Assembly: GCA_027310665.1 (NCBI GenBank)
Contig: DAIDAJ010000011.1
Span: forward strand, 1 to 63,922
Source: Sideroxydans sp.
GTDB taxonomy: Bacteria > Pseudomonadota > Gammaproteobacteria > Burkholderiales > Gallionellaceae
Direction: 5' to 3'
DNA: 63,922 bases
This document shows positions 6,644-18,313 of the stretch, piece by piece. Made by a program: the position numbers and the translations under genes. The first letter of the stretch is position 1. Each line of letters opens with the position of its first letter. Below the pieces are notes generated by a model. The model made no database searches. It saw nothing but the letters and a program-made list of their open reading frames with translations, and had not been told where the DNA came from.

Positions 6644-8610
6644 TATTCGCCCAGACCCATTTGGATGTAGCCAGTCGGACATACATCGGCACAGATGTGG
6701 CAGCCGATGCATTTGTCGTAGTCGGTGGCCACGTAACGACCCAAGGTAGACTCGGTCTTCTTGACGCGGTAGACGGCGGTCTGCGGGCAATACACGACAC
6801 AGTTATCGCACTCGAAGCACATGCCGCAGCTCATGCAACGTTTGGCTTCGGCAACGGTTTGTTTCTCATCCAGCACTCCCAATCGATCCTGGAAGTTGCC
6901 CAATGCACTTTCCTTATCAAGTGTGGTCACCGCTCGTTGGTTGCGAGCCACATAAGAGAAGTGTCCGAGGAACAGCTTGTCGTGCGGGATGATGTAACGG
7001 TCGGAACGGTTATCGAAATTGTGTACCGCGGCGTTGGAATCGCACGTGCCGCGCATCGGCTCGTGATTTTCCTTGGGTTCGAGGCCTTTTTCCGCCAATT
7101 TCCTGATCAGGTCGAATTGGTGCGCGTCGATCTTGGGACGTTTTTCCAATTCCTGGCCGTTCATATAGTGATGGATACCGTCGGCCGCGATGGAGCCGTG
7201 TCCAATAGCGGTGGTGAGCAGATGTGGGCGAATCACGTCGCCGCCGGCGAATACACCGGGCTGTCCGTTCACCACGTAATTGCGGTCCGTCGAGACGGCA
7301 CCCTTGCCGTTGTTGAATTGCTCCAGTCCGGTGAAATCGACCGCCTGGCCGATCGCAGAAACGATCAGATCGGCTTCGATGTCATGTTCGCTGCCTTCGA
7401 TGTTCTTGATCTCCAGTTTGCCGCCCGCCATCTTGGCTTCGCACTTCGCCACTCTTAGCGCAGTAGCGCGGCCATTTGCATCGCGCACGATACCGACCGG
7501 TGCCAGGCTGCCAATGATCTGGATGCCCTCGGCCAGCGCCTGTTCTATCTCGTGCTTGTTGGCCTGCATCTTGTCGATGTTGAAGATGGAAGTCAGCGTG
7601 ACGTCAGCGCCTTGCTTCACGGAAATATCCGCGACATCGTGTGCCAATCGTCCGGCGATGGCGAGTTCGGCATCGGTCGGCTTGGCATGCTTGATGTGGC
7701 CGAGACGGCGCGCGACTGTCGCCACGTCGATGGAGGTATCACCACCGCCGACCACCACCACGCGCTTGCCTACATGCTGCAGACGCCCGTCGTTAAAGGC
7801 TTTCAGGAAAGCGGTCGCAGTCACCACATTGGGGGCCGCACTGTCCGCGATCGGCAGGGCACGACCGGCCTGAGCCCCCATGCCGAGGAACACCGCGTCG
7901 AAATCCTTGCGGATCTGTTCCATGGTGATGTCGGTACCTACGCGTGTCTTCATGCGTGTTTTCACACCCAGATCGAGAATCCGCTGGATTTCCGCGTCCA
8001 GTACATCGCGCGGAGTACGGAAGCCCGGAATGCCGTAGCGCATCATCCCGCCCAGGAATTCATGTTCATCGAACACGGTAACTTCGTGTCCTTTCAGCGC
8101 CAATTGATAGGCGCAGGACAAACCGGCCGGGCCAGCACCGAGGATGGCAACTTTCTTGCCGGTCGTGTGCGCGGGTTTGTTGAACTTGAGCTTGTTGGCG
8201 ATCGCATATTCGCCCAGGAAATGTTCGACCGAATTGATGCCGACGTGGTCTTCCACTTCGTTGCGGTTGCAACCTGTCTCGCACGGTGCCGGGCATACGC
8301 GTCCCATCACCGACGGGAACGGGTTGGCCTCGGTCAAACGACGCCATGCGTATTCTTGCCAAGCCATCGTCGGTTTTCCGTCGGCGCCGACGGGCGGCTT
8401 TTCTGTGCCGCGCACGATGGCCAGATAGCCCCGGATGTCCTCACCGGCCGGACAGCTGCCCTGGCATGGCGGTGTGGACTGTATATAGGTCGGGCACTTG
8501 TAGGTATAGCTGGCCTGGAAGATTTTCTCGTTCAGGCGGCGGACTTTATTGTCTCCATCCTTGTAACGACGGAATGTGATTTTCTGGGGGGTTTCGCTCA
8601 CTACTGACAT
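6643..8610 (-). CDS. dsrL: DsrL, iron-sulfur flavoprotein NAD(P)H oxidoreductase
   Basis: 655-aa protein related to the small subunit of glutamate synthase. The N-terminal cluster site reads CPTYIQSTPPCQGSCPAG. FAD- and NAD(P)-binding Rossmann folds follow (VAILGAGPAGLS near residue 150, VVVVGGGDTS near 290). A C-terminal ferredoxin-like region has CMSCGMCFECDNCVVYCP and CIGCHICADVCPTG. In sulfur oxidisers DsrL accepts electrons from DsrAB and passes them to NAD(P)+, and it is required for stored-sulfur oxidation. Its presence with dsrEFH marks the pathway as oxidative. No residue loss is visible. Confidence 0.96.
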   Translation of the reverse strand: MSVVSETPQKITFRRYKDGDNKVRRLNEKIFQASYTYKCPTYIQSTPPCQGSCPAGEDIRGYLAIVRGTEKPPVGADGKPTMAWQEYAWRRLTEANPFPSVMGRVCPAPCETGCNRNEVEDHVGINSVEHFLGEYAIANKLKFNKPAHTTGKKVAILGAGPAGLSCAYQLALKGHEVTVFDEHEFLGGMMRYGIPGFRTPRDVLDAEIQRILDLGVKTRMKTRVGTDITMEQIRKDFDAVFLGMGAQAGRALPIADSAAPNVVTATAFLKAFNDGRLQHVGKRVVVVGGGDTSIDVATVARRLGHIKHAKPTDAELAIAGRLAHDVADISVKQGADVTLTSIFNIDKMQANKHEIEQALAEGIQIIGSLAPVGIVRDANGRATALRVAKCEAKMAGGKLEIKNIEGSEHDIEADLIVSAIGQAVDFTGLEQFNNGKGAVSTDRNYVVNGQPGVFAGGDVIRPHLLTTAIGHGSIAADGIHHYMNGQELEKRPKIDAHQFDLIRKLAEKGLEPKENHEPMRGTCDSNAAVHNFDNRSDRYIIPHDKLFLGHFSYVARNQRAVTTLDKESALGNFQDRLGVLDEKQTVAEAKRCMSCGMCFECDNCVVYCPQTAVYRVKKTESTLGRYVATDYDKCIGCHICADVCPTGYIQMGLGE

Positions 8611-8625
8611 TTGCCTATCTCCTCT

Positions 8626-10155
8626 TTATTTCGGTCCTAACTGGATCGCGTTGCTAACCAGTTGATGCACACCGCCCACCATCTTCCTGTCGAAACCGTA
8701 GATGGGCATTATTTTGGTAAATTGAGCCTTGCAGATGGCGCAAATGGTCGCCATGAAATTGACGCCATGTTCATCGACTGCCTGCTGCAATACTTCCATG
8801 CGCGGCAGCGCCCCCTTGACGCGCAGTTCGAGCAGATCGTCGGTCAGCAGTCCACCGCCGCCGCCGCAACAGAATGTCTGTTCACGCGTGGTGCTGGGCG
8901 CCATCTCGACGAAATTGTTGGCGACCGCCCTGATGATATTGCGCGGGATCTCGAATTGGCCGCCGGGCAGATCGCCCATGCGCGAGCCGCGCGCCACGTT
9001 GCAGGAATCGTGGAATGTGATGATGTGTTTGTCGTTCGCCGATTTGTCAAAGGTCAGACGGTTATCCTGAATCATGTCCCAAGTGAACTCGCAGATATGA
9101 GCGGGTTGCTTGTAGCGATGATCCAGTTGCTTTTGCAACATCTGGGCAAAATGGTCGTTGGCGTCAGCCCCTTCCCCGACTCCGGTCAGGGTATTCCAGA
9201 AGCTGTACGCTACACGCCATGCATGGCCGCATTCTCCGACCACGATGCGTTTAACGCCCAATTCCAGCGCTGCCTGGCGGATGCGCAGCGCAATGGTGCG
9301 CAGTTGATCGTAATTGCCGATGAACATGCCGAAATTGCCCGCCTCTGACGACATCGACGAGAGTGTCCAGCTGGTGCCGGTGGCATGAAATACTTTCGCG
9401 TAACCGATCAGGCTGTCGATATGAGGCTCGGCAAAAAAATCAGCAGACGGCGTGATGAGCAGCACTTCTGCACCTTTCACGTCCATCGGAAAGCGCACAT
9501 CGAAGCCGGTAGCATCTTTTACGTCTTCTTCCAGACCCTCCAGCGTATCGCGCAATGCCGGACCCGGCAGGCCGAGATTGTTGCCGATCTTGTGTACCTT
9601 GCCGATGATCTCGTTGGAATATTTCTGTCCGTAACCGACGGTATCGAGTATCTCGCGCGCGGCCATGGTGATTTCGGCAGTGTCGATGCCGTAGGGACAG
9701 AACACCGAGCAGCGGCGGCATTCGGAACACTGATTGAAATAGTTGTACCACTCGTCCAGCACTTCGCGCGTCAGATCGCGCGCACCGACCAGTTTGGGGA
9801 ACAGCTTGCCGGGCAAGGTAAAGTAGCGGCGATAGACGCTGCGTAGCAGGTCCTGGCGCGCCACCGGCATGTTCTTCGGGTCTTGCGTGCCGATGAAATA
9901 ATGGCATTTGTCGGAGCAAGCGCCGCAATGCATGCAGGCATCCATGAATACTTTTAGCGAACGGTATCTGGACAGCAAATCACCCATCTTGCCGATGGCA
10001 CGGTCATGCCAGTCTTCCACCAGCTGGCCGGGGAAGCCGAGCGCTTCATTGAGCTTCTCACCTGCAACAAATGGCCCCTTCCCTTCCATCGCACCGGGCT
10101 TCAACGCGGGGATGAGGGGGATGACGCGATAGGCCGGTGCTGTAATGTCCGCCAT
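8626..10155 (-). CDS. dsrK: DsrK, HdrD-like catalytic subunit of DsrMKJOP
   Basis: 509-aa cytoplasmic iron-sulfur protein. Two classical [4Fe-4S] sites (CMHCGACSDKC at residues 74-84 and CSECRRCSVFCPYG) are followed by CCG-type cysteine-rich regions, including FCCGGGGG, for the non-cubane cluster known from heterodisulfide reductase. It acts on the DsrC trisulfide/disulfide and passes electrons to heme-b DsrM. The ATG lies one base after the dsrM stop. The Isp2 protein at 55273-56535 is a second member of this superfamily in the same window. Confidence 0.95.
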   Translation of the reverse strand: MADITAPAYRVIPLIPALKPGAMEGKGPFVAGEKLNEALGFPGQLVEDWHDRAIGKMGDLLSRYRSLKVFMDACMHCGACSDKCHYFIGTQDPKNMPVARQDLLRSVYRRYFTLPGKLFPKLVGARDLTREVLDEWYNYFNQCSECRRCSVFCPYGIDTAEITMAAREILDTVGYGQKYSNEIIGKVHKIGNNLGLPGPALRDTLEGLEEDVKDATGFDVRFPMDVKGAEVLLITPSADFFAEPHIDSLIGYAKVFHATGTSWTLSSMSSEAGNFGMFIGNYDQLRTIALRIRQAALELGVKRIVVGECGHAWRVAYSFWNTLTGVGEGADANDHFAQMLQKQLDHRYKQPAHICEFTWDMIQDNRLTFDKSANDKHIITFHDSCNVARGSRMGDLPGGQFEIPRNIIRAVANNFVEMAPSTTREQTFCCGGGGGLLTDDLLELRVKGALPRMEVLQQAVDEHGVNFMATICAICKAQFTKIMPIYGFDRKMVGGVHQLVSNAIQLGPK

Positions 10156-10156
10156 G

Positions 10157-10885
10157 CTATTTCTCCGATTCCAACTTGGCAGCCCAAGCGCTCAGATGGC
10201 GCTTCTCGCGCGGGTCGTCCTTCTGGTTGCGTGTCGGTGAAAAAAAGACTCCTGGCGCGTGCAGCAGTTTGCTGTTGGGGAACACGACCAGGAGTGACAC
10301 AACCAACGACAGGTGAATCATCAACAACAGATCGGCAGGAAGCACTCCGACATCAAAATGCATCAAGCCTAGGAAATACGACTTCACCGCGATCACATCA
10401 GTGTGTGCAGCGAATTTCATCATCAAACCTGATGCGGCTATGCCGATAAGCAACAGCAGCATCAGGTGATCAGACGGTGTCGAGATGTAGCGGATGCGCT
10501 CGACGAACATACGTCGCGCCCACAGTCCGCACAACCCCAACAACATGGTGATGCCCGCATACATCCCGAATGGCTGGATGAACGCGACCCACTCCCATAC
10601 AGGCTCGGTGAAATAGCGCAGATGACGCAGGATCACCAATGCCAGACTGGCATGGAACAACCAGCCCAGACCCCATATCCACAGATTGGCCTTGAACAGG
10701 CTTTCGAAGAAAACCACCTCGCGCGTCATGCGCAACACCACGCCACCGGTGGTGGTGGGCGCAGGTGTCGTCGGTATCTTCAGCGGAGCCGGGGTGCGGG
10801 CGTAGGTGCTAATGCGATAGAGCAGCCCTACGACAAGCAACAGTGTCGCGAGATAAAACAGGGTCGCAAAAACGATGCTCGCCAT
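10157..10885 (-). CDS. dsrM: DsrM, heme-b membrane subunit
   Basis: 242-aa integral membrane protein of the NarI-like family, with about five hydrophobic helices and histidines placed to bind heme b. It anchors DsrK and links DsrC oxidation to the quinone pool. It begins 27 bases after dsrC ends. The C-terminal cytoplasmic tail is basic (PTRNQKDDPREKRHLSAWA). Isp1 of the hydrogenase operon further along is from the same family. Assignment follows from operon order and topology. Confidence 0.93.
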   Translation of the reverse strand: MASIVFATLFYLATLLLVVGLLYRISTYARTPAPLKIPTTPAPTTTGGVVLRMTREVVFFESLFKANLWIWGLGWLFHASLALVILRHLRYFTEPVWEWVAFIQPFGMYAGITMLLGLCGLWARRMFVERIRYISTPSDHLMLLLLIGIAASGLMMKFAAHTDVIAVKSYFLGLMHFDVGVLPADLLLMIHLSLVVSLLVVFPNSKLLHAPGVFFSPTRNQKDDPREKRHLSAWAAKLESEK

Positions 10886-10912
10886 GAGAGTGTCCCTATC
10901 GCCCGACCTTGA

Positions 10913-11248
10913 TTAAACGCAACCGGTGGGTTTGGGCAGGCCGGCGATCTTGCATGCCTGCTTGCCTGGACCGTACGGGAACAAGCCGTACAGGTACTCG
11001 CTGTTGCCTTTTTCCGCACCGAGCTTCTTGCCAATGGCTTTCGTCAGAACGCGCACTGCCGGAGCGATCTGGTATTCCTCGAAATACTCGCGCAGGAAAT
11101 TGACGACTTCCCAGTGCTGCTCGGTCATGGTGACATTCTCAGTCTGTGCGATGTAATTCGCGACTTCGGTGTTCCAATCGGCCAGATTGGTCAGATAACC
11201 CTCTTCATCTGTTTCGTAGCTTTTGCCGCCCACTTCGATTGTTGACAT
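10913..11248 (-). CDS. dsrC: DsrC, sulfur-carrier protein with both redox cysteines
   Basis: 111-aa DsrC/TusE family protein with the complete C-terminal arm: Cys99 in KQACKIAG and the penultimate Cys110 in PKPTGCV, ten residues apart. These two cysteines carry the DsrC persulfide/trisulfide that is the substrate of DsrAB and DsrMK. It sits between dsrH and dsrM, the canonical position. A paralogue at 15877-16206 lacks both cysteines, so this is the catalytic copy in the window. Confidence 0.97.
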   Translation of the reverse strand: MSTIEVGGKSYETDEEGYLTNLADWNTEVANYIAQTENVTMTEQHWEVVNFLREYFEEYQIAPAVRVLTKAIGKKLGAEKGNSEYLYGLFPYGPGKQACKIAGLPKPTGCV

Positions 11249-11275
11249 GCTGTTTCTCCTTCTGTTTATTACTGA

Positions 11276-11572
11276 TTAAAGCCAGGATTGGCAGGTTTTG
11301 TTACTGCTAGTCAGATCGACGAAACCGCCATAATCGACTGGTGAAACGCCTTCCATGAGCCGGTCGCCCAATCCGCGTGCCTCAAGATCCGGCATCAGGA
11401 CGTGCACCTTGAACCGGCCCATTGCATTGCGCAGCTTGGCTTCTCCGGCGTTGCCTCGCGTCGCCGCATAGACCGCATCTTCGATGAGCAGAATGTCTCC
11501 GCCCGTCGCCGTATTCAAACAACTGTCCAGCGAGACACTGGTCAGGGGCGATTTATTGATGATATGTAACAT
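11276..11572 (-). CDS. dsrH: DsrH, sulfur-transfer subunit (TusB family)
   Basis: 98-aa protein of the DsrH/TusB family. It forms the DsrEFH hexamer that receives persulfide sulfur and passes it to DsrC. The conserved cysteine lies at residue 18 in LDSCLNTATGGDILLIEDAV. It is separated by 12 bases from dsrF and 27 bases from dsrC, in the usual E-F-H-C order. Length and sequence are normal for the family. Confidence 0.94.
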   Translation of the reverse strand: MLHIINKSPLTSVSLDSCLNTATGGDILLIEDAVYAATRGNAGEAKLRNAMGRFKVHVLMPDLEARGLGDRLMEGVSPVDYGGFVDLTSSNKTCQSWL

Positions 11573-11584
11573 GCGTCCTTCCCC

Positions 11585-11950
11585 TTAGAAACTCAAGACC
11601 ACGTCTTGCTCGTCCATCAGTTTGCCCATCTCGGCACGGCTGAGCAATGTGACGGGCACCAGAAAATCTTCCTCGGTCAGACCGCGTGCCTCCATGGCTT
11701 CTTTTTCCACATACAGCTTCTCGATGTCGTAGTCTTCCAGGGCGCGATAAGCCGGCGAGAAATTCTTGGTCTCTATCCCTTTGGTCTGCTGCCCTTTCTT
11801 CAACTGGTACACGCCGTCATCCAGAAACGCCAGCGATACATCCTGATCAAATGCCGCAGTGATCAAAACCACCTCCAGCGACTCCAGCGCGTAGATCGTA
11901 CCGTAAGGCGCCTTGCGATTGACGAACATGAATTTCTTAGCATCACTCAT
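11585..11950 (-). CDS. dsrF: DsrF, sulfur-transfer subunit (TusC family)
   Basis: 121-aa protein of the DsrF/TusC family and second subunit of the DsrEFH sulfurtransferase. The N-terminal RKAPYGTIYALESLEV block is typical. It has no cysteine, which agrees with the family's structural role next to the cysteine-bearing DsrE and DsrH. It lies 11 bases after dsrE. Confidence 0.94.
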   Translation of the reverse strand: MSDAKKFMFVNRKAPYGTIYALESLEVVLITAAFDQDVSLAFLDDGVYQLKKGQQTKGIETKNFSPAYRALEDYDIEKLYVEKEAMEARGLTEEDFLVPVTLLSRAEMGKLMDEQDVVLSF

Positions 11951-11961
11951 TCCGTCTCTCC

Positions 11962-12321
11962 TTAATCCCCGAAGGTGACCAGACGGTCACATTTGATTCC
12001 GGCTTCCACCAGTTGCCCCAGCCCGGAGATACGGAAACCCTGAGCCAGATTCTCTTCCTTGATACCGCGACGCAAAGCAGCAGCGACGCAAACCACCAGA
12101 TCGACCTTGTGCTCTTCAGCCAGCTTTGCCCAGCGATTCACGATATTCCGGTCATCCTGCGGCGGCTCAGTCAATTTGGACGCGTTGTTGACGCCATCGT
12201 GATAGAAGAACACGCGCCAGACTTCGTGCCCCTTGGCGATGGCGGCCTTGGCGAACAGATAAGCCGAGTCGCTGGCTTGATGCTGGTAAGGCCCTTCGTT
12301 GACGACGATTCCGAATTTCAT
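11962..12321 (-). CDS. dsrE: DsrE, sulfur-transfer subunit with active cysteine
   Basis: 119-aa TusD/DsrE family protein. The active-site cysteine lies in VVCVAAALRRGI (about residue 78), the place of the persulfide-carrying cysteine of A. vinosum DsrE. It passes sulfur from TusA/DsrE2-type donors to DsrC with DsrF and DsrH. It starts 14 bases after dsrB. The presence of DsrE, F and H is diagnostic of the oxidative direction. Confidence 0.95.
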   Translation of the reverse strand: MKFGIVVNEGPYQHQASDSAYLFAKAAIAKGHEVWRVFFYHDGVNNASKLTEPPQDDRNIVNRWAKLAEEHKVDLVVCVAAALRRGIKEENLAQGFRISGLGQLVEAGIKCDRLVTFGD

Positions 12322-12335
12322 TCAGGACCTCTCGC

Positions 12336-13421
12336 TCAGAAACGGATATGGGTCGACGCGTTCAAATTGGAACGGGAACCGCGCCAATCGTCGATCAGAT
12401 ACTTGGTGAACGGCAATCCGGTCTTTTCGAAGAAACGCGGCCAGCCGATACGGTCGATCCAGTCTGCCATGCGCTCCCAGGGACGGGCATCTGCCTTGTA
12501 AACGCGCAGGATATTCTTTACCGCTTCGCCAACTTCTGGCCAGCGTGGTGCATTGTTCGGGTAGCCGGAGGCGACCATCTTCATGAAAGTCGGCTTGCCG
12601 CGTGCGTTGGAATTCTTACCGCCAACCCAGATCGCCAGTTTGGAATTCTCCGGATCGTTGATCTGCATCGGCGGGCACGGAGGATAGCAAGCGCCGCAGC
12701 ACATACATTTTGATTCGTCGATCTCCAGTGAAGGCTTGCCATTCACCATGGCGGGACGAATCGCAGCTACCGGGCAACGCGCCACTACTGCCGGGCGTTC
12801 GCATACGTTGGCAACCAGGTCGTGATTGATGACCGGTGGTTTGGTGTGCTGCACGATGATGGCGATATCGGCCTGTCCGCCGCAATTGATCTCGCAGCAG
12901 GATGTGGACATATGCACACGATTCGGCATTTCTTCCTGCTTGAACTCTTCGATCAGTTCGTCCATCAGCGCCTTCACCACACCCGACGCATCCGTACCCG
13001 GAATGTCGCAGTGCAGCCAGCCCTGGGTGTGCGCGATCATGGTTACGGAGTTGCCCGTTCCGCCAACCGGGAAACCATGTTTCTCCAGTTCGGCAATCAG
13101 CGGTGCGACCTTCTTTTCTTCCGACACGATGTACTCGATGTTGGAACGAATGGTGAAGCGTACGCGGCCATCGGCGAACTTGTCGGCGATATCGCATAGC
13201 GTGCGAATGGTATAGACATCCATCTGGCGTTGCGTACCAGCACGCACTGTCCATACCTCATCACCTGAGTGTGACACATGGTGCAGCACGCCCGGACGGG
13301 GACGGTCGTGATATTTCCAGTTGCCGTAGTTTTTCGCCAGCAACGGGTGCAGGTATTTCTTGTTGTCCGGTACGCCAGTCTCTTTCGGCTTGCGCATCTG
13401 TACAGGTGCGGGTGCATTCAT
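12336..13421 (-). CDS. dsrB: DsrB, reverse dissimilatory sulfite reductase beta subunit
   Basis: 361-aa beta subunit of siroheme sulfite reductase. Visible blocks include the RSNIEYIV region, STSCCEINCGG, VVARCPVAAIRP, and the ferredoxin-type cluster CMCCGACYPPCPP. It forms the alpha2beta2 enzyme with DsrA that oxidises DsrC-bound sulfur to sulfite. A TTG two codons upstream is open, but the ATG at 13421 has GAGGAG at seven bases' spacing and gives the expected N-terminus MNAPAPV. dsrA ends 11 bases upstream. Confidence 0.96.
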   Translation of the reverse strand: MNAPAPVQMRKPKETGVPDNKKYLHPLLAKNYGNWKYHDRPRPGVLHHVSHSGDEVWTVRAGTQRQMDVYTIRTLCDIADKFADGRVRFTIRSNIEYIVSEEKKVAPLIAELEKHGFPVGGTGNSVTMIAHTQGWLHCDIPGTDASGVVKALMDELIEEFKQEEMPNRVHMSTSCCEINCGGQADIAIIVQHTKPPVINHDLVANVCERPAVVARCPVAAIRPAMVNGKPSLEIDESKCMCCGACYPPCPPMQINDPENSKLAIWVGGKNSNARGKPTFMKMVASGYPNNAPRWPEVGEAVKNILRVYKADARPWERMADWIDRIGWPRFFEKTGLPFTKYLIDDWRGSRSNLNASTHIRF

Positions 13422-13432
13422 TTTCAATCTCC

Positions 13433-14728
13433 TCAGGCAGCTTGCTTTTTGGCTTTGATTTTAGCGACTTCGTCATCCCATCCATCGGTACGGACGTATG
13501 GGTTCATGCGTGGCGAACTGATCATTGCCGGATCGACTTCGACCTCCATCGCATCCAGGAAGTTGGACAGGCCGATACGCTCGATCATCTCGCCGGTGCG
13601 TTCATGTTCCAATGCGTTTTCGGCAAAGAAATCAATAGTGCGCTGTGCGAAATCGACCAGCTTCTCGACTTCCTCTTCAGTGTCCAGCTTCATGAACGGA
13701 ATAACCACGGTACCCATCAGGCCGCCGATCTTCAGGTGGCTTTTGCCGCCAACCAGTACGCTTGCGCCCTTGTCCTTGCCGGGAGCCAATGCGCCTGTCA
13801 TCACGTTGACGCAGTGCATGCAACGCACGCAATCCTGATTGTCGATCTCGATCCCGTGCGTGTCGCTTACCGCCACGCTGGTGATATGTTCACCTTTCTT
13901 GATCTTCTTGAGCTCCTTGACCTGGAATGTCTTGGTCGGGCAGCGCGCGACGACGTCGTTCACCAGCTCGTCCATGCCATGCTTGGCAAACCATTTCTTG
14001 GCCAGCCCCTCATCGGTGCGCATATTGTCACGCCAAGTGCCGATCACGGCCATGTCGGAACGCTGAATTGCATTCATGCAGTCGTTCGGACAGCCGGAGA
14101 ACTTGAACTTGAACTTGTATGGCAGCGAAGGACGGTGCAGGTCATCCAGGAAAGTATTCAGGACTGCGCGGTGCGCATTTGCCTCGTCGTAGCAAGACTG
14201 CTCGCAGCGTGCGGCTCCCACGCAAGACATGGAGGTACGCACAGCAGGACCGGCGCCACCAAGGTCAAAACCCATCTCATTGATCTCGTCAAATGCCTTC
14301 TGCACGTTCTCGGTCGTGCAACCCTGGAACATGATGTCGCCGGACTGGCCGTGGAACGCAATCAGGCCGGAACCATGCTTTTCCCATATATCGCAGAATT
14401 TGCGCAGAGTATCGGTATCGTAGTGCATGCCGGGAGGGGGCATAACGCGCAAAGTGTGGAATTCGGCAGCATCCTTGTAGACAGCTTGGCCGTTTTCGTC
14501 CTTGAGCTCGGTAAAGCGCGGAATAACGCCGCCGCCATAGCCGAACACGCCGACGGTACCGCCCTTCCAGTATCCCTTGCGGGTCTTGTACGATGTCTCA
14601 AGTTGACCGAGCAGATCGACCATGAGATCTTTTTCTTTGGCAAGCCGTTTCAGGCCGGTCACAAAACTCGGCCATTTGCCTTTTTCGAGCTCATCCAGAT
14701 TTGGAGTGTCATACATTTTTTTTGCCAT
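13433..14728 (-). CDS. dsrA: DsrA, reverse dissimilatory sulfite reductase alpha subunit
   Basis: 431-aa alpha subunit, first gene of the dsr operon. The siroheme-coupled [4Fe-4S] site is formed by SCVGAARCEQSC together with FSGCPNDC. A ferredoxin insertion carries CVRCMHCVNVMTG. Length is normal. It is transcribed away from the plus-strand locus beginning at 15030, and the two share a 301-base intergenic region. An AAAGGAAAA ribosome site precedes the ATG. Identification is certain from sequence and operon. Confidence 0.97.
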   Translation of the reverse strand: MAKKMYDTPNLDELEKGKWPSFVTGLKRLAKEKDLMVDLLGQLETSYKTRKGYWKGGTVGVFGYGGGVIPRFTELKDENGQAVYKDAAEFHTLRVMPPPGMHYDTDTLRKFCDIWEKHGSGLIAFHGQSGDIMFQGCTTENVQKAFDEINEMGFDLGGAGPAVRTSMSCVGAARCEQSCYDEANAHRAVLNTFLDDLHRPSLPYKFKFKFSGCPNDCMNAIQRSDMAVIGTWRDNMRTDEGLAKKWFAKHGMDELVNDVVARCPTKTFQVKELKKIKKGEHITSVAVSDTHGIEIDNQDCVRCMHCVNVMTGALAPGKDKGASVLVGGKSHLKIGGLMGTVVIPFMKLDTEEEVEKLVDFAQRTIDFFAENALEHERTGEMIERIGLSNFLDAMEVEVDPAMISSPRMNPYVRTDGWDDEVAKIKAKKQAA

Positions 14729-15029
14729 GATATTTTCCTTTCAAGTCGCGTTGAGCTACATTGCCCGGCGGGGCCTGGAATTCCTAATGTCGTACGGGCT
14801 CTGGTACATATTGCAACCACCGACCCGGTTTCTTAATGGTTCCGCATAGTACGGCGCAACATCAAGCCTAACCATCACCCTTAGCGACTATCCAAAGTAA
14901 CCCTTAAGGGGGGTGCTTTTCGCTTCCCCAGTAGTATTCCAATCAGGACGGTAATGGCGCTAGACTAGGCGCATACAAAGGGCTAGTCGATTCTCGGTCC
15001 GTCTCATTTAACCAAACCTAAGGAAAAAC
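14729..15029. promoter_or_regulatory. divergent dsr / Cas6-like-locus intergenic region
   Basis: 301 bases without a gene between dsrA (minus) and the 72-aa gene (plus). It must hold the promoters of both units. The notable content is the inverted repeat at 14898-14916, with a partial copy (CACCCTTAG) just before it at about 14877. No other gene or array is visible. The plus-strand gene has an AAGGA ribosome site at the right-hand end. Confidence 0.6.
14898..14916. promoter_or_regulatory. candidate shared operator, dsr copy
   Basis: The 19-base element TAACCCTTAAGGGGGGTGC contains the perfect palindrome CCCTTAAGGG. It is identical at 18 of 19 positions to the element between soeA and sat (28609-28627). 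It lies 170 bases before dsrA and 114 bases before the 72-aa gene. A CTAG-containing -10-like hexamer (TAGACT) begins 45 bases to its right. It resembles sites of NarL/FixJ-type regulators in being a short C-rich/G-rich inverted repeat; the binding protein is inferred, not shown. Confidence 0.6.
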
Positions 15030-15248
15030 ATGGCGAAAATCACCGAATTGAACAAGATCCATGTTCCTCTGGGGGGACAACAAATCGAGCTGCAACAGAT
15101 CGACCATGCAGAAGATGGCATGAGCATGCTGCGTGTTCGCATCCGAGAAGGAAAACGTTTCACCATTTTCGATATTGATCCGGCAACGGCAGGGCAATGG
15201 GCGGCGACCATGCTGCAATGGGCCAATTCGCAAGGTAATAGCAAGTGA
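15030..15248 (+). CDS. small hypothetical protein, first gene of the Cas6-like locus
   Basis: 72-aa soluble protein starting from an ATG with AAGGA eight bases upstream. It is predicted mostly beta at the N-terminus (HVPLGGQQIELQQI, SMLRVRIREGKRFTIF), followed by one helix (PATAGQWAATMLQWA). It has no cysteine, so it is not a sulfur carrier. Its stop overlaps the GTG start of the Cas6-like gene by four bases, so the two are probably translated together. I do not recognise a characterised family. Confidence 0.8.
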   Translation: MAKITELNKIHVPLGGQQIELQQIDHAEDGMSMLRVRIREGKRFTIFDIDPATAGQWAATMLQWANSQGNSK

Positions 15249-15847
15249 CGGCCCCGCACATTGAAATGATCGATCTGGTATTCGAAATAAGCGGAGGAAC
15301 ATTGCCTGCCGCTTATCCCTATACATTATGGGACGAACTTGTCCGGCTAGCCCCGCAACTCGGGGAAGATGAAAATGTCGGCGTCATCCCCCTGCGCATG
15401 TCCACAAGCAATGAGGGAATGTTGCTTCCCAAACGCGCCAAGCTGGTTTTGCGACTGCCGCATTCGCTTGCCAATGTCGCTACCGGCCTTGCGCAGAAGC
15501 AAATGCGGGTGGCAGACAGCTTGATACAGCTGGGTTCATGCAAAACGAGGCTAATTTCGCACTATCCCACCCTGCATGCGCATTTGGTGACAGGCGCTGA
15601 TAATGAAATCGCATTCATGAAAGAAGTGGAATCTGCTCTCGTAGCGATGGGGGTTGAGGCAAAATTGATCTGCGGTCAACGCCTCACCTTGACAAATGGC
15701 GAGCGCGCAATCAAAGGATACAGCCTGGTTTTGCATGACCTCAGTCCGGAAGATTCGTTACGTGTGCAATATTCCGGATTGGGTGAGGAACGGCGGTTTG
15801 GCTGCGGCATTTTCGTGCCGTACAAGGTCATCTCCGGCTTGGAGTGA
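15245..15847 (+). CDS. Cas6/Cmx6-like RAMP protein, orphan (no CRISPR nearby)
   Basis: 200-aa protein. The C-terminal glycine-rich loop, YSGLGEERRFGCGIFVPYK at about residues 176-194, is the RAMP signature of Cas6 proteins, and the start MIDLVFEISGGTLP resembles Cmx6, the Cas6 of the MYXAN CRISPR subtype. Cmx6 proteins, as I recall them, carry histidines in a (D)H-Y/A-L block and a G-I/V-H-P block near residues 20-50. Here those read AAYPYTL and GVIPL, and there is no histidine between residues 6 and 72. RNA cleavage may be lost and RNA binding kept (inference). The GTG start overlaps the preceding stop; ATG at 15266 is an alternative. No array or other cas gene is visible. Confidence 0.75.
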   Translation: MTAPHIEMIDLVFEISGGTLPAAYPYTLWDELVRLAPQLGEDENVGVIPLRMSTSNEGMLLPKRAKLVLRLPHSLANVATGLAQKQMRVADSLIQLGSCKTRLISHYPTLHAHLVTGADNEIAFMKEVESALVAMGVEAKLICGQRLTLTNGERAIKGYSLVLHDLSPEDSLRVQYSGLGEERRFGCGIFVPYKVISGLE

Positions 15848-15876
15848 CGTTTTACTGAAAGAAAGGGAAAGTAAAG

Positions 15877-16206
15877 ATGGGATACACAGTTGCAGGCAAC
15901 GAGTTGGAAACCAATGATGACGGCTTTTTGCTCGAGCCGGATTTCAGTGAAGAAGTGGTGAGCGTGATCGCGGCGTCCGAGGGAATCGAGCTGACGCCCA
16001 AGCACTGGGAAGTCATCAACTACATGCGCGAGCAGTACCGCGAGCACGGCCACACACCCAATTTCCGCAACATGCTGAAGGACATCAACGAATTCTGGCC
16101 GGAAGCTGACAGCAAGGCATTGTACGACCTGTTTCCAATGGGGCCCGCCAAACAGGCTGCAAAAGTCGCCGGATTGCCGCAACCTTTGGGTAAAGGCGGC
16201 TACTGA
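15877..16206 (+). CDS. cysteine-less DsrC paralogue (RspA-type)
   Basis: 109-aa DsrC/TusE family protein that keeps the family core (LTPKHWEVINYMREQY, LYDLFPMGPAKQAAKVAG) but has no cysteine at all. The first redox cysteine of DsrC (KQACK) is Ala95 here, and the C-terminal arm ends LPQPLGKGGY instead of TGCV. It therefore cannot form the DsrC persulfide or trisulfide. Cysteine-free members have been set apart from DsrC as putative regulatory proteins (RspA). It lies 29 bases after the Cas6-like gene with a GAAAGGGAAAG ribosome site. Confidence 0.9.
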   Translation: MGYTVAGNELETNDDGFLLEPDFSEEVVSVIAASEGIELTPKHWEVINYMREQYREHGHTPNFRNMLKDINEFWPEADSKALYDLFPMGPAKQAAKVAGLPQPLGKGGY

Positions 16207-16360
16207 AACCACGCCAGCCAGGTACCTCATCAAGGGGACGCCGTGGTTGCAAGGGGCCAAAGCCCCTGCAACACACGCAATTGGTTATGATGGGACTGCC
16301 AGCCATTCGACCAGGCTGCCAAACAACACCAGCCAAGTCGCTGGCTTTAAGGAGATGAAG

Positions 16361-16840
16361 ATGGGAATGGATATGGTCAACGTAGTACTAGACATGAAGG
16401 GGCTTTCCTGCCCCAGGCCGCTCATCGGGGCGAAACGCATGGTCGACGAACTTGCCGCTGGGCAGGTGTTGCTGCTGGTGTCCGACTGCCCTGGAACGCA
16501 GGATGATCTGTTCGCCTGGGCGAAATTGACTGGCAACCAGATACTTAAAACCGAGAAGATGCCTGATGGCGGAACCGGCTATCACATCCAGAAAGGCGCG
16601 GGCCATGCACATAGCGCCAACGTCACGCTGGATATACGCGGTGCAGTTTGCCCCGGCCCCATCGTCGAGGCAAAAAAACTGTTGAACGGGATGCAAACGG
16701 GCGAAGTGCTGAAACTCATCAGCGATTGCCCCGGTGTGCAGTCCGACATAGGCGGCTGGGCTTCCGCAACCGGCATGACTTTACTGGAATCCGTTGAAGC
16801 TGCGGCCGGCGTGCACGAGTTCTACATCCGTAAAGGCTGA
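16361..16840 (+). CDS. tandem TusA-domain fusion protein
   Basis: 159-aa protein of two consecutive TusA domains (about residues 7-78 and 87-158). Each keeps the CPxP motif (GLSCPRPL, Cys17; GAVCPGPI, Cys97) and each has a second cysteine in SDCPG (Cys43, Cys123). Single-domain TusA carries persulfide sulfur, so this fusion may hold two sulfurs or deliver between two partners (inference). Several in-frame ATGs exist; 16361 has AAGGAG at six bases, whereas 16355 is too close. A single-domain tusA lies at 21598-21825. Confidence 0.88.
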   Translation: MGMDMVNVVLDMKGLSCPRPLIGAKRMVDELAAGQVLLLVSDCPGTQDDLFAWAKLTGNQILKTEKMPDGGTGYHIQKGAGHAHSANVTLDIRGAVCPGPIVEAKKLLNGMQTGEVLKLISDCPGVQSDIGGWASATGMTLLESVEAAAGVHEFYIRKG

Positions 16841-16843
16841 GCC

Positions 16844-17440
16844 TTGCGCATCAAAAGCAGCTGGTTCAAGGAAGGCCGCAAACGCACTCCGCAGGAGGTC
16901 TCGGATGCGTTGGCATTCGTCGTTTCGCGTATCGCCGACAATGCCCTGAAGAACACACGCAAGGCGAAATTCGAGATTGAAGTCGGGGTACAGTACTTCG
17001 ACTTCCTCGCCGAATTCCTGTTGTTCCTCATTATCTCCGCCGACCGCATCGCTTATCGCGAACTTACGGAAGAAGACCGGCTCGTTTTCACCAGCAACCT
17101 AGCAAACCGGGTAGCCGAGACCTACGCCGAGAACCGCAGCCGCCTGCTTGTCGAAGATCTGAAGGAGTGCAAGCGGCGCTTCATCGACTTGCTCAACCAG
17201 CGCGCCGGGGAATATGCCGAATTCGGCTACGACGAAAACGGGCCCGCGTATACCTTTTATCGCTATCTCGCCTATTGCATCGGCGAAATCATGACCGATG
17301 CGGACAGCGGCTGGATCATCGACCAGATCATCAGCTTCGAAGCACCAGAGGCAATTCAGATGGTCGAAAAGACGCTCCGCGGCCTGTATGAGGCCGAGCC
17401 GAAAAAATCACACCGCCGCGCGTCGGTCAGCGGAGACTGA
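16844..17440 (+). CDS. hypothetical helical protein
   Basis: 198-aa protein, apparently all-helical and soluble, starting with TTG three bases after the tandem TusA gene. It is rich in charged residues with a conserved-looking core (QYFDFLAEFLLFLIISADR, FYRYLAYCIGEIM). One hydrophobic stretch near residue 53-66 is too short and interrupted to be a confident membrane segment. I do not recognise a family. The next gene begins at the base after its stop, so it sits tightly inside the operon. Confidence 0.75.
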   Translation: MRIKSSWFKEGRKRTPQEVSDALAFVVSRIADNALKNTRKAKFEIEVGVQYFDFLAEFLLFLIISADRIAYRELTEEDRLVFTSNLANRVAETYAENRSRLLVEDLKECKRRFIDLLNQRAGEYAEFGYDENGPAYTFYRYLAYCIGEIMTDADSGWIIDQIISFEAPEAIQMVEKTLRGLYEAEPKKSHRRASVSGD

Positions 17441-18313
17441 ATGAAAAGCCCGTTCGACCCAAACAACACCGAAAGCTATCTGCGCTGGCGCGAATGGAAA
17501 CTTGCTGCCGCGCCGCTCTCGGTGAACGAATTCATGGTCGAGGTGCATGATCCGCGTGCGCTGACGCCGATTGAACACGCTGCGCTGGCCGAGCGTGTTC
17601 GGCGCAGCAACATGGCGATCTACGCCAGCCTCCTGCACGATGCGGACACCGAAATCCCGCGTTTGCTCGGCGTCCAGTTTGGTCTGAAACATCTCGATGC
17701 CAATTGGCTGGCTGGCGAAGACGGCATCTCCGAAATCCGCGTATTCGACAACGGCACGCGCCAGAATTACATTCCTTACACCGACAGACCGATCAAGTGG
17801 CACACCGACGGCTATTACAACCCGCCGGAACGTACGATCCGCGGCATGGTGCTGCATTGTGTTCGCAACGCCAGCAGCGGCGGCGAGAACCATCTGATGG
17901 ATCACGAAATGGCCTACCTGCTGTTGCGCGATGAAAATCCACAGCACATTCGGGCATTAATGCAGCCCGACGCGATGACCATCCCGGATCGAGTGGATGA
18001 GACGGACGGCGTGCGCACCGCGCAAAGCGGCCCCGTGTTCTCATTGGACACTACCGGAAACCTCCACATGCGCTACACCGCACGCACCCGCAGCATCGAA
18101 TGGAAACAGGATGCCGAAACACTTTCGGCAGTGGCCGCACTGGAACGCCTGCTGGCATCCGATACACCGCACATCTTCAAAGCACACCTCGATCCGGGTA
18201 TGGGGCTGCTATGCAACAATGTGTTGCATGATCGCAGCGCCTTTACCGACGCCCCCGGCCAACCTCCACGTTTGCTGTATCGCGCCCGCTATCTGGACAG
18301 GATGAACACTTGA
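17441..18313 (+). CDS. TauD/TfdA-family 2-oxoglutarate dioxygenase
   Basis: 290-aa non-heme iron dioxygenase. The facial triad is visible: His121 and Asp123 in KWHTDGYYNP, and distal His263 in NNVLHDRSAF. Arginines for 2-oxoglutarate follow in RLLYRARY. The family hydroxylates small acids; taurine and other sulfonates are known substrates of TauD but the substrate here is not evident. It starts directly after the preceding stop and is the last tightly packed gene of the plus-strand locus. A role in organic sulfur is suggested by context only. Confidence 0.85.
   Translation: MKSPFDPNNTESYLRWREWKLAAAPLSVNEFMVEVHDPRALTPIEHAALAERVRRSNMAIYASLLHDADTEIPRLLGVQFGLKHLDANWLAGEDGISEIRVFDNGTRQNYIPYTDRPIKWHTDGYYNPPERTIRGMVLHCVRNASSGGENHLMDHEMAYLLLRDENPQHIRALMQPDAMTIPDRVDETDGVRTAQSGPVFSLDTTGNLHMRYTARTRSIEWKQDAETLSAVAALERLLASDTPHIFKAHLDPGMGLLCNNVLHDRSAFTDAPGQPPRLLYRARYLDRMNT

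Follow-up and report, generated by a model that had tools for sequence, protein, structure and literature searches.

Genes at the divergent dsr locus

The window, that is, the whole stretch of 63,922 nucleotides that was analyzed, contains two divergent transcription units. The minus-strand unit comprises dsrA (13433–14728), dsrB (12336–13427), dsrE (11962–12321), further dsr genes and the main DsrC of the dsr operon (10913–11248). The plus-strand unit begins with a gene for a 72-aa DUF6967 protein (PF22295; 15030–15248), recognized from the ORF list and Pfam, and extends to a TauD-type dioxygenase identified by Pfam (17441–18313), which elsewhere in the class is often located 5′ of the Cas6-like gene. 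Between them lie the coding sequences for a 200-aa Cas6-family protein with a GTG start (15245–15847), for a DsrC-like protein matching Pfam and NCBIfam models (15877–16206), for a protein with two TusA domains (16361–16840, with an assumed start codon; searches were run on 16364–16840) and for a conserved 198-aa protein that no Pfam or NCBIfam model recognizes at E 1 (16844–17440). The DsrC-like protein is a paralog of the main DsrC, with which it shares 41% identity; it lacks the C-terminal cysteines and ends in KGGY. The start of the Cas6-like ORF and the stop codon of the 72-aa ORF share 4 bases, and dsrA, dsrB and dsrE run the opposite way at 14728–11962, in line with an earlier, sequence-only reading of this DNA, which had described the gene as translationally coupled to a 72-aa gene and divergent from dsr.

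The product of 15245–15847 matches the Cas6 family PF09559 with 188.6 bits (cut-off 26.7, E = 1.5e-55) and the cas6_cmx6 model TIGR02807 with 139.3 bits, above the equivalog cut-off of 98.85; six PADLOC Cas6 models also match. The Cmx6 likeness and the glycine-rich RAMP loop at residues 178–190, both proposed from the sequence, are borne out by these profile searches and by the presence of G178LGEERRFGCGIF190. The AlphaFold model has high confidence (pLDDT 92.4, pTM 0.87); among PDB entries it is matched best by a type I-B CAST Cas6 (8fcu_B, TM 0.87) and next by other Cas6 and Cse3 structures, and Foldseek ranks 1–41 are all Cas6, Cse3, RAMP or Cascade entries. The predicted fold, with two RRM/ferredoxin-like halves, is thus that of Cas6 and not a non-RAMP one, and the 200-aa ORF is a genuine Cas6-family protein. 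It is the only PF09559 match in the genome of the window (3.19 Mb, 127 contigs, 92.6% complete).

The DUF6967 protein is modeled with four strands plus one helix (pLDDT 90.7). Of the 12 highest-ranking fold matches of this model, 10 are PUR proteins, binders of single-stranded nucleic acids, with non-significant E values of 0.4–1, so that the resemblance is a hint only. The intergenic region between dsrA and the DUF6967 gene (14729–15029) is conserved in blocks, strongly so in Gallionellaceae-type loci, and includes the palindrome-like ACCCTTAAGGG; it is likely a divergent promoter with operators.

Distribution, gene neighborhood and CRISPR-Cas

The distribution of the gene was followed in the order and class of the window, which we take to be Burkholderiales and Gammaproteobacteria on the GTDB placement of Gallionellaceae. 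The order sample comprised 399 genomes at least 80% complete, in which the dsrA search used the settings of the PF09559 search; the class sample comprised 275 genomes, 90 of them with dsrA (89 besides the window's own), and 80 of these 89 were scored with PF09559. A scan of a named genome collection, in which Sideroxydans and Gallionella MAGs come closest to the window, returned 544 relatives, and the best 80 are referred to here as the named Gallionellaceae-type set. Four dsr-linked sets were available, with 80 (best of 544 named), 74 (order), 31 (the family of genome G789) and 75 members (rest of the class). Five of the 74 order loci duplicate a named locus, leaving 69, so that the distinct loci amount to 255, or to 175 when the named set is left out. 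Neighboring genes were searched with the proteins of the window and with two G789 proteins, one DsrC-like and the other Cas6-like, so that very diverged neighbors would be missed.

The presence of the Cas6-like gene follows that of dsrA. In the order, dsrA was found in 86 genomes and the Cas6-like gene in 79, all within those 86 and with one PF09559 match each, while none of the 313 dsrA-negative genomes carries it (Fisher p = 6e-76, with relatedness left uncorrected). The dsr link read from the window is therefore far stronger than could be seen there, since 79/79 carriers in the order have dsrA. Outside the order, 75 of the 80 scored genomes with dsrA from the class had exactly one match; the order to which G789 belongs, a single family of 55 genomes, has the gene in 47, and among genomes near to the window a homolog occurs in 31 of 61. 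Carriers include genomes of about 1.1 Mb (G881, G973). A sample of 397 genomes of the phylum yielded six carriers, all from the window's class; in the 34 genomes of the phylum that have dsrA but belong to other classes, the gene appears to be absent, as judged from their presumed inclusion in that sample. Together with the dsrA-positive genomes without the gene in the order (7/86: G117, G156, G165, G178, G246, G306, G335) and in the rest of the class (5/80: G916, G942, G955, G1033, G1037), this apparent absence indicates that dsr does not need the Cas6-like gene. Co-occurrence and clustering with dsrA place it in the oxidative dsr cluster.

The gene order is equally regular. Up to the contig ends, all 30 distinct near-genome loci, window included, show dsrA on the minus strand divergent from DUF6967, Cas6-like and DsrC-like genes; 25 of the 30 duplicate a locus among the best 80 of 544 named ones, and the locus of a further near carrier, G056, was viewed as L169. 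Of those best 80, 76 show dsrA and 79 show the DsrC-like gene; in the remainder, contig ends cut the locus short. Orthologs of dsrB and dsrE adjoin the homologs too. For 78 of the 79 carriers of the order the neighborhood was viewed, and dsrA is the divergent neighbor in all except G250, where it lies about 4.9 kb from the Cas6-like gene and outside the viewed stretch, and G270 and G300, where TauD is interposed; in G316, judged by coordinates alone, dsrA is divergent at 476 bases. Elsewhere in the class, dsrA lies on the same contig as the Cas6-like gene in 58 of 75 carriers and on a different one in the other 17; 57 of the 58 are at most 6 kb apart, all 57 divergent, and in G941 the distance is 41 kb. 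The common arrangement there is dsrA on the minus strand divergent from TauD, Cas6-like and DsrC-like genes, with TauD upstream in 53/75 loci, the DsrC-like gene at most 1.6 kb downstream in 57/75 and one or the other in 65/75; in five of the 18 loci with no DsrC-like match, the downstream sequence available was only about 1.5 kb long. Homologs are thus regularly adjacent to dsr across the class, a survey that the sequence-only reading had called for. Chance placement next to dsr is ruled out by synteny and co-occurrence.

The DsrC-like gene accompanies the Cas6-like gene also in 66/74 loci of the order and 21/31 of G789's family, and it is downstream in 218 of the 255 distinct loci. The last 14 residues of this partner contain no cysteine in 215 of the 218 and one cysteine in three; its dN/dS (median 0.08 over 440 pairs of the best 80 of 544) is low. 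Cysteine-less relatives of DsrC have reportedly been named RspA, "regulatory sulfur-related proteins", and DsrC itself is said to have been proposed as a binder of the dsr promoter. In G789's family (L216–L245), the gap after the Cas6-like gene often has TATAAT before the DsrC-like gene and a conserved block, TATCCCTTTTGAGGAAT, upstream, which looks like promoter DNA.

In E. coli, relatives of TusA and of TusE/DsrC take part in tRNA thiolation, and both TusA-type and DsrC/TusE-type proteins are found among the neighbors; the Cas6-like protein might then act, as an RNase or RNA chaperone, on tRNA or rRNA linked to sulfur transfer and not on dsr mRNA. This role is quite improbable, however, because the presence of the gene follows dsrA, with none of the 313 dsrA-negative genomes of the order carrying it, and because the DsrC-like neighbor is devoid of the sulfur-carrying cysteine. 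In classic DsrC, according to the accessible part of PMC3397948, sulfur is carried by the penultimate cysteine; with its C-terminal cysteines missing, the paralog should not carry sulfur in the same way.

A second explanation is that the protein processes crRNA in trans for distant arrays, the adjacency to dsr being due to chance or history. It could draw on the score of the window protein, which exceeds the equivalog cut-off of the Cmx6 model, and on the CRISPR loci that some carriers, including the genome of the window, do have. The survey of that genome consisted of a cas1 search, the PF09559 search and inspection of the sequence around cas1. In the window, a script found no exact repeats of 14 or 20 bases at CRISPR-like spacing, and the gene is surrounded by the dsr neighborhood instead of a cas operon with an array; the statement of the sequence-only reading that CRISPR is missing thus holds for the window, but elsewhere the genome has a type II CRISPR-Cas9 locus. 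Its single cas1, coding for a type II Cas1, is found there, together with Cas9 (1141 aa, TIGR01865 E = 5.7e-231) and Cas2, and the locus (L033, G000:C41:19500-39400, at 8370–13927) also carries an array of 13 repeats. Type II systems rely on tracrRNA and RNase III, not on Cas6. A CRISPR locus deprived of its own cas6, with repeats that this protein cleaves, had been named as evidence against recruitment; the only cas1 locus found is of type II.

Furthermore, cas1 is absent from 23 of 31 near-relative carriers and from 37 of 75 carriers elsewhere in the class, including two genomes of about 1.1 Mb; it is also missing from G004, G023 and G028, each consisting of one contig, while in other carriers incompleteness may hide some cases. 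The presence of the Cas6-like gene was not found to depend on the CRISPR-Cas content of the genome. Since it tracks dsrA instead, and many carriers have no cas1, recruitment outside CRISPR is supported, and processing of crRNA in trans, extremely improbable in view of the type II locus and of the cas1-less carriers, was rejected. As to a viral origin, no relative was present among 15 pattern matches in viral contigs.

Active-site histidines, selection and RNA structure

The window protein has Tyr24, Ile48 and Tyr193 at positions where most dsr-linked relatives outside Gallionellaceae have histidines; at 24, in the region in or before helix 1 where the active-site histidine of Cas6 is expected, it has a tyrosine. 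His24 is present in 6/6 homologs from CRISPR operons, in 74/75 proteins from the rest of the class, in 31/31 of G789's family and in 52/74 of the order (50/69 without duplicates), that is, in 155 of 175 distinct dsr-linked homologs outside the named set; among the best 80 of 544 named relatives, 78 have Tyr24 and two His24. All three positions are histidines in 63/75, 31/31, 43/74 and 0/80 proteins of the same sets. At positions 48 and 193, none of the six CRISPR-operon proteins has a histidine, so that these two residues mark the dsr-linked group and not Cas6 in general. The CAST Cas6 has a histidine in the column of 48 (GIHPI) and an asparagine in that of 24.

The loss of histidines proposed in the sequence-only reading was therefore correct in part. 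It stands for AAYPYTL, whose first tyrosine is position 24 and for which the CRISPR-operon homologs have His in 6/6; for GVIPL (Ile48) it agrees with most dsr-linked relatives outside Gallionellaceae and with the CAST Cas6, but not with the CRISPR-operon proteins (His in 0/6). It applies to the window protein and its close relatives, whereas most other dsr-linked homologs keep their histidines, so that "non-cutting" cannot fit the whole family. On a tree of 136 rows with the histidine columns masked, at least eight changes were counted for His24 and at least seven each for positions 48 and 193; the joint loss of the three was not significant after correction for relatedness, only 4–5 independent pairs being available, and control columns behaved much alike. 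Loss of the histidine is, moreover, no proof of lost cutting, since the Sulfolobus Cas6 (SsoCas6) cleaves although it is histidine-free, as stated in the accessible text of PMC3652601.

Other residues set the dsr-linked proteins apart. Glu121 and Lys194 are nearly invariant across the dsr-linked sets, and Arg64 mostly so; in the six CRISPR-operon proteins Pro121 occurs in 6/6, Lys194 in 0/6 and Arg64 in 1/6. Cys143 is found in 80/80 (best of 544 named), 63/74, 28/31 and 43/75 proteins of the order, G789's family and the rest of the class, respectively, and in 0/6 of the CRISPR-operon proteins, for which another alignment places a different residue at 143, also not a cysteine. A 75-row tree, built by a quick method and with few CRISPR-linked rows, has a branch with SH-aLRT 99 splitting 68 dsr-linked proteins from seven cyanobacterial plasmid proteins. 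The dN/dS of the Cas6-like gene (best 80 of 544, 222 pairs) has a median of 0.23 and a maximum of 0.60, with 0.13 for the window against L043, and these low values indicate that the gene is kept by selection.

These residues bear on the main rival to an RNA-binding regulator, namely that the Cas6 fold serves as a scaffold binding the DsrC-like protein, DsrAB or the sulfur relay, RNA being no longer involved; its role would be in assembly or redox sensing, perhaps via conserved cysteines. The relation of the partner genes to the sulfur relay agrees with this, as do the frequency of Cys143 in the dsr-linked sets only and the retention of the gene in Gallionellaceae after the histidines were lost. 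A pure scaffold, however, would need none of the glycine-rich loop residues, Arg64, Arg70, Lys194 and, outside Gallionellaceae, mostly His24, all of which are conserved; for this reason it is considered unlikely.

A search for an RNA target by Rfam, intergenic alignments and folding statistics gave no convincing candidate. Rfam returned nothing at gathering score on the window, and at E 1 on 14500–16500 a single match far below its gathering score. In the dsrA/DUF6967 region, 74 aligned Gallionellaceae-type sequences gave RNAalifold values of −0.19 and −3.4 kcal/mol on the two strands, with no control run, which indicates little conserved RNA structure. The gap before the DsrC-like gene had median folding z-scores of −0.75 (20), −0.5 (38) and +0.4 (21), each computed from 30 mononucleotide shuffles, with a few single loci below −4. 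The leaders of other families gave values of −6.7/−7.4 (10 sequences), −4.0/−5.9 (12) and 0/−5.4 (32), and −1.8 was obtained for the gap in G789's family (18 loci), with column-shuffled controls at about 0. Weak conserved structure may exist in the leaders of two other families, of a kind that such runs cannot separate from DNA palindromes.

Proposed role and comparison with known systems

Judged from family, predicted fold, single copy, divergent adjacency to dsrA, pairing with the DsrC-like gene, independence from cas1 and purifying selection, a Cas6 homolog has almost certainly left CRISPR and become a regular accessory of the oxidative (reverse) Dsr pathway in Gammaproteobacteria. The data suggest that this takeover of an immune RNA-handling protein for sulfur metabolism happened long ago. 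Binding of a short RNA hairpin is a property of Cas6 proteins, many of which also cut it at the base; in the Cas6-like proteins the glycine-rich loop and basic residues are retained, and it is fairly probable that they act through RNA. Regulation of a sulfur-gene transcript is a narrower claim and somewhat less than evenly supported. The overall picture, a domesticated Cas6 that would be an RNA-binding accessory of oxidative Dsr and would cut where the histidine is kept, is put forward with even confidence.

According to this proposal, the double RRM-like fold would recognize a small RNA hairpin, and the protein would act with the DsrC-like protein and, in the window's order, often with DUF6967 too, the outcome being a tuned expression of dsr or other sulfur genes. 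Lineages with His24 probably cut their RNA as well, while in Gallionellaceae, where His24, His48 and mostly His193 are gone, the protein probably only binds. A more specific and tentative scenario, rather less probable than the overall picture, is a single early domestication in oxidative-Dsr gammaproteobacteria as a site-specific RNase for sulfur transcripts, with the cysteine-less DsrC reporting the sulfur state, followed by decay to a non-cutting regulator in Gallionellaceae. If the RNA role is true, Cas6 would be at work in energy metabolism across a bacterial class, and the kept and lost histidines would be a built-in natural experiment. Two neglected partners, the cysteine-less DsrC and DUF6967, are also brought out.

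No report of a Cas6–dsr link was found among the full-text papers searched, most subscription papers being outside their scope; none is given in the accessible parts of PMC5944118, PMC10952691, PMC5728499, PMC10734462, PMC6397845, PMC11406059 and PMC3150331. In PMC10734462, a Gallionellaceae pangenome, oxidative-type dsrAB is described for iron-oxidizing members, and Cas6 is unmentioned in the main text as far as it was accessible. The dsrABEFHCMKLJOPNRS cluster of Allochromatium vinosum represents the same gene neighborhood, but the Cas6-like gene is not in that list as given in the accessible part of PMC3368242, which leaves out the divergent side of dsrA.

The closest annotated relatives are found among the Cas6/Cmx6 proteins. 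The type I-MYXAN Cas6/Cmx6 (TIGR02807) shares both the Pfam and the NCBIfam families, and its His24 is common to most dsr-linked homologs. In 6/7 cyanobacterial plasmid records, the Cas6/Cmx6 gene has cas3 and further cas genes as neighbors. In a Gloeobacter morelensis plasmid (L213, 4974–5765), the Cas6/Cmx6 gene has no annotated cas neighbors in the stretch shown, and a gene of the phosphoadenosine phosphosulfate reductase family is close by; it may be another non-CRISPR Cas6. The seven plasmid proteins score 161–255 bits with TIGR02807, in comparison with 104–149 for four individually scored dsr-linked proteins; all 70 dsr-linked members of the alignment match at E 1e-5, the best (E = 2.4e-45) being somewhat above those four. 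Pfam scores of the two groups overlap, and a stricter TIGR02807 cut-off might part them. The present cut-off of 98.85 bits admits the four scored proteins, and pipelines would therefore call them CRISPR-associated; by this label, a conserved neighbor of an important sulfur pathway is hidden and CRISPR counts would be inflated.

SsoCas6, like the window protein, lacks the catalytic histidine; however, as described in the accessible part of PMC3652601, it is a CRISPR processing enzyme relying on lysines and an arginine, unlike the window protein with its dsr setting. With the Cas6 of the type I-B CAST (8fcj/8fcu chain B) the whole-chain fold is common (TM 0.87, 25% identity), as is the glycine-rich loop; the CAST protein belongs to a Cascade complex, whereas the window protein stands outside any CRISPR operon and adjoins dsr.
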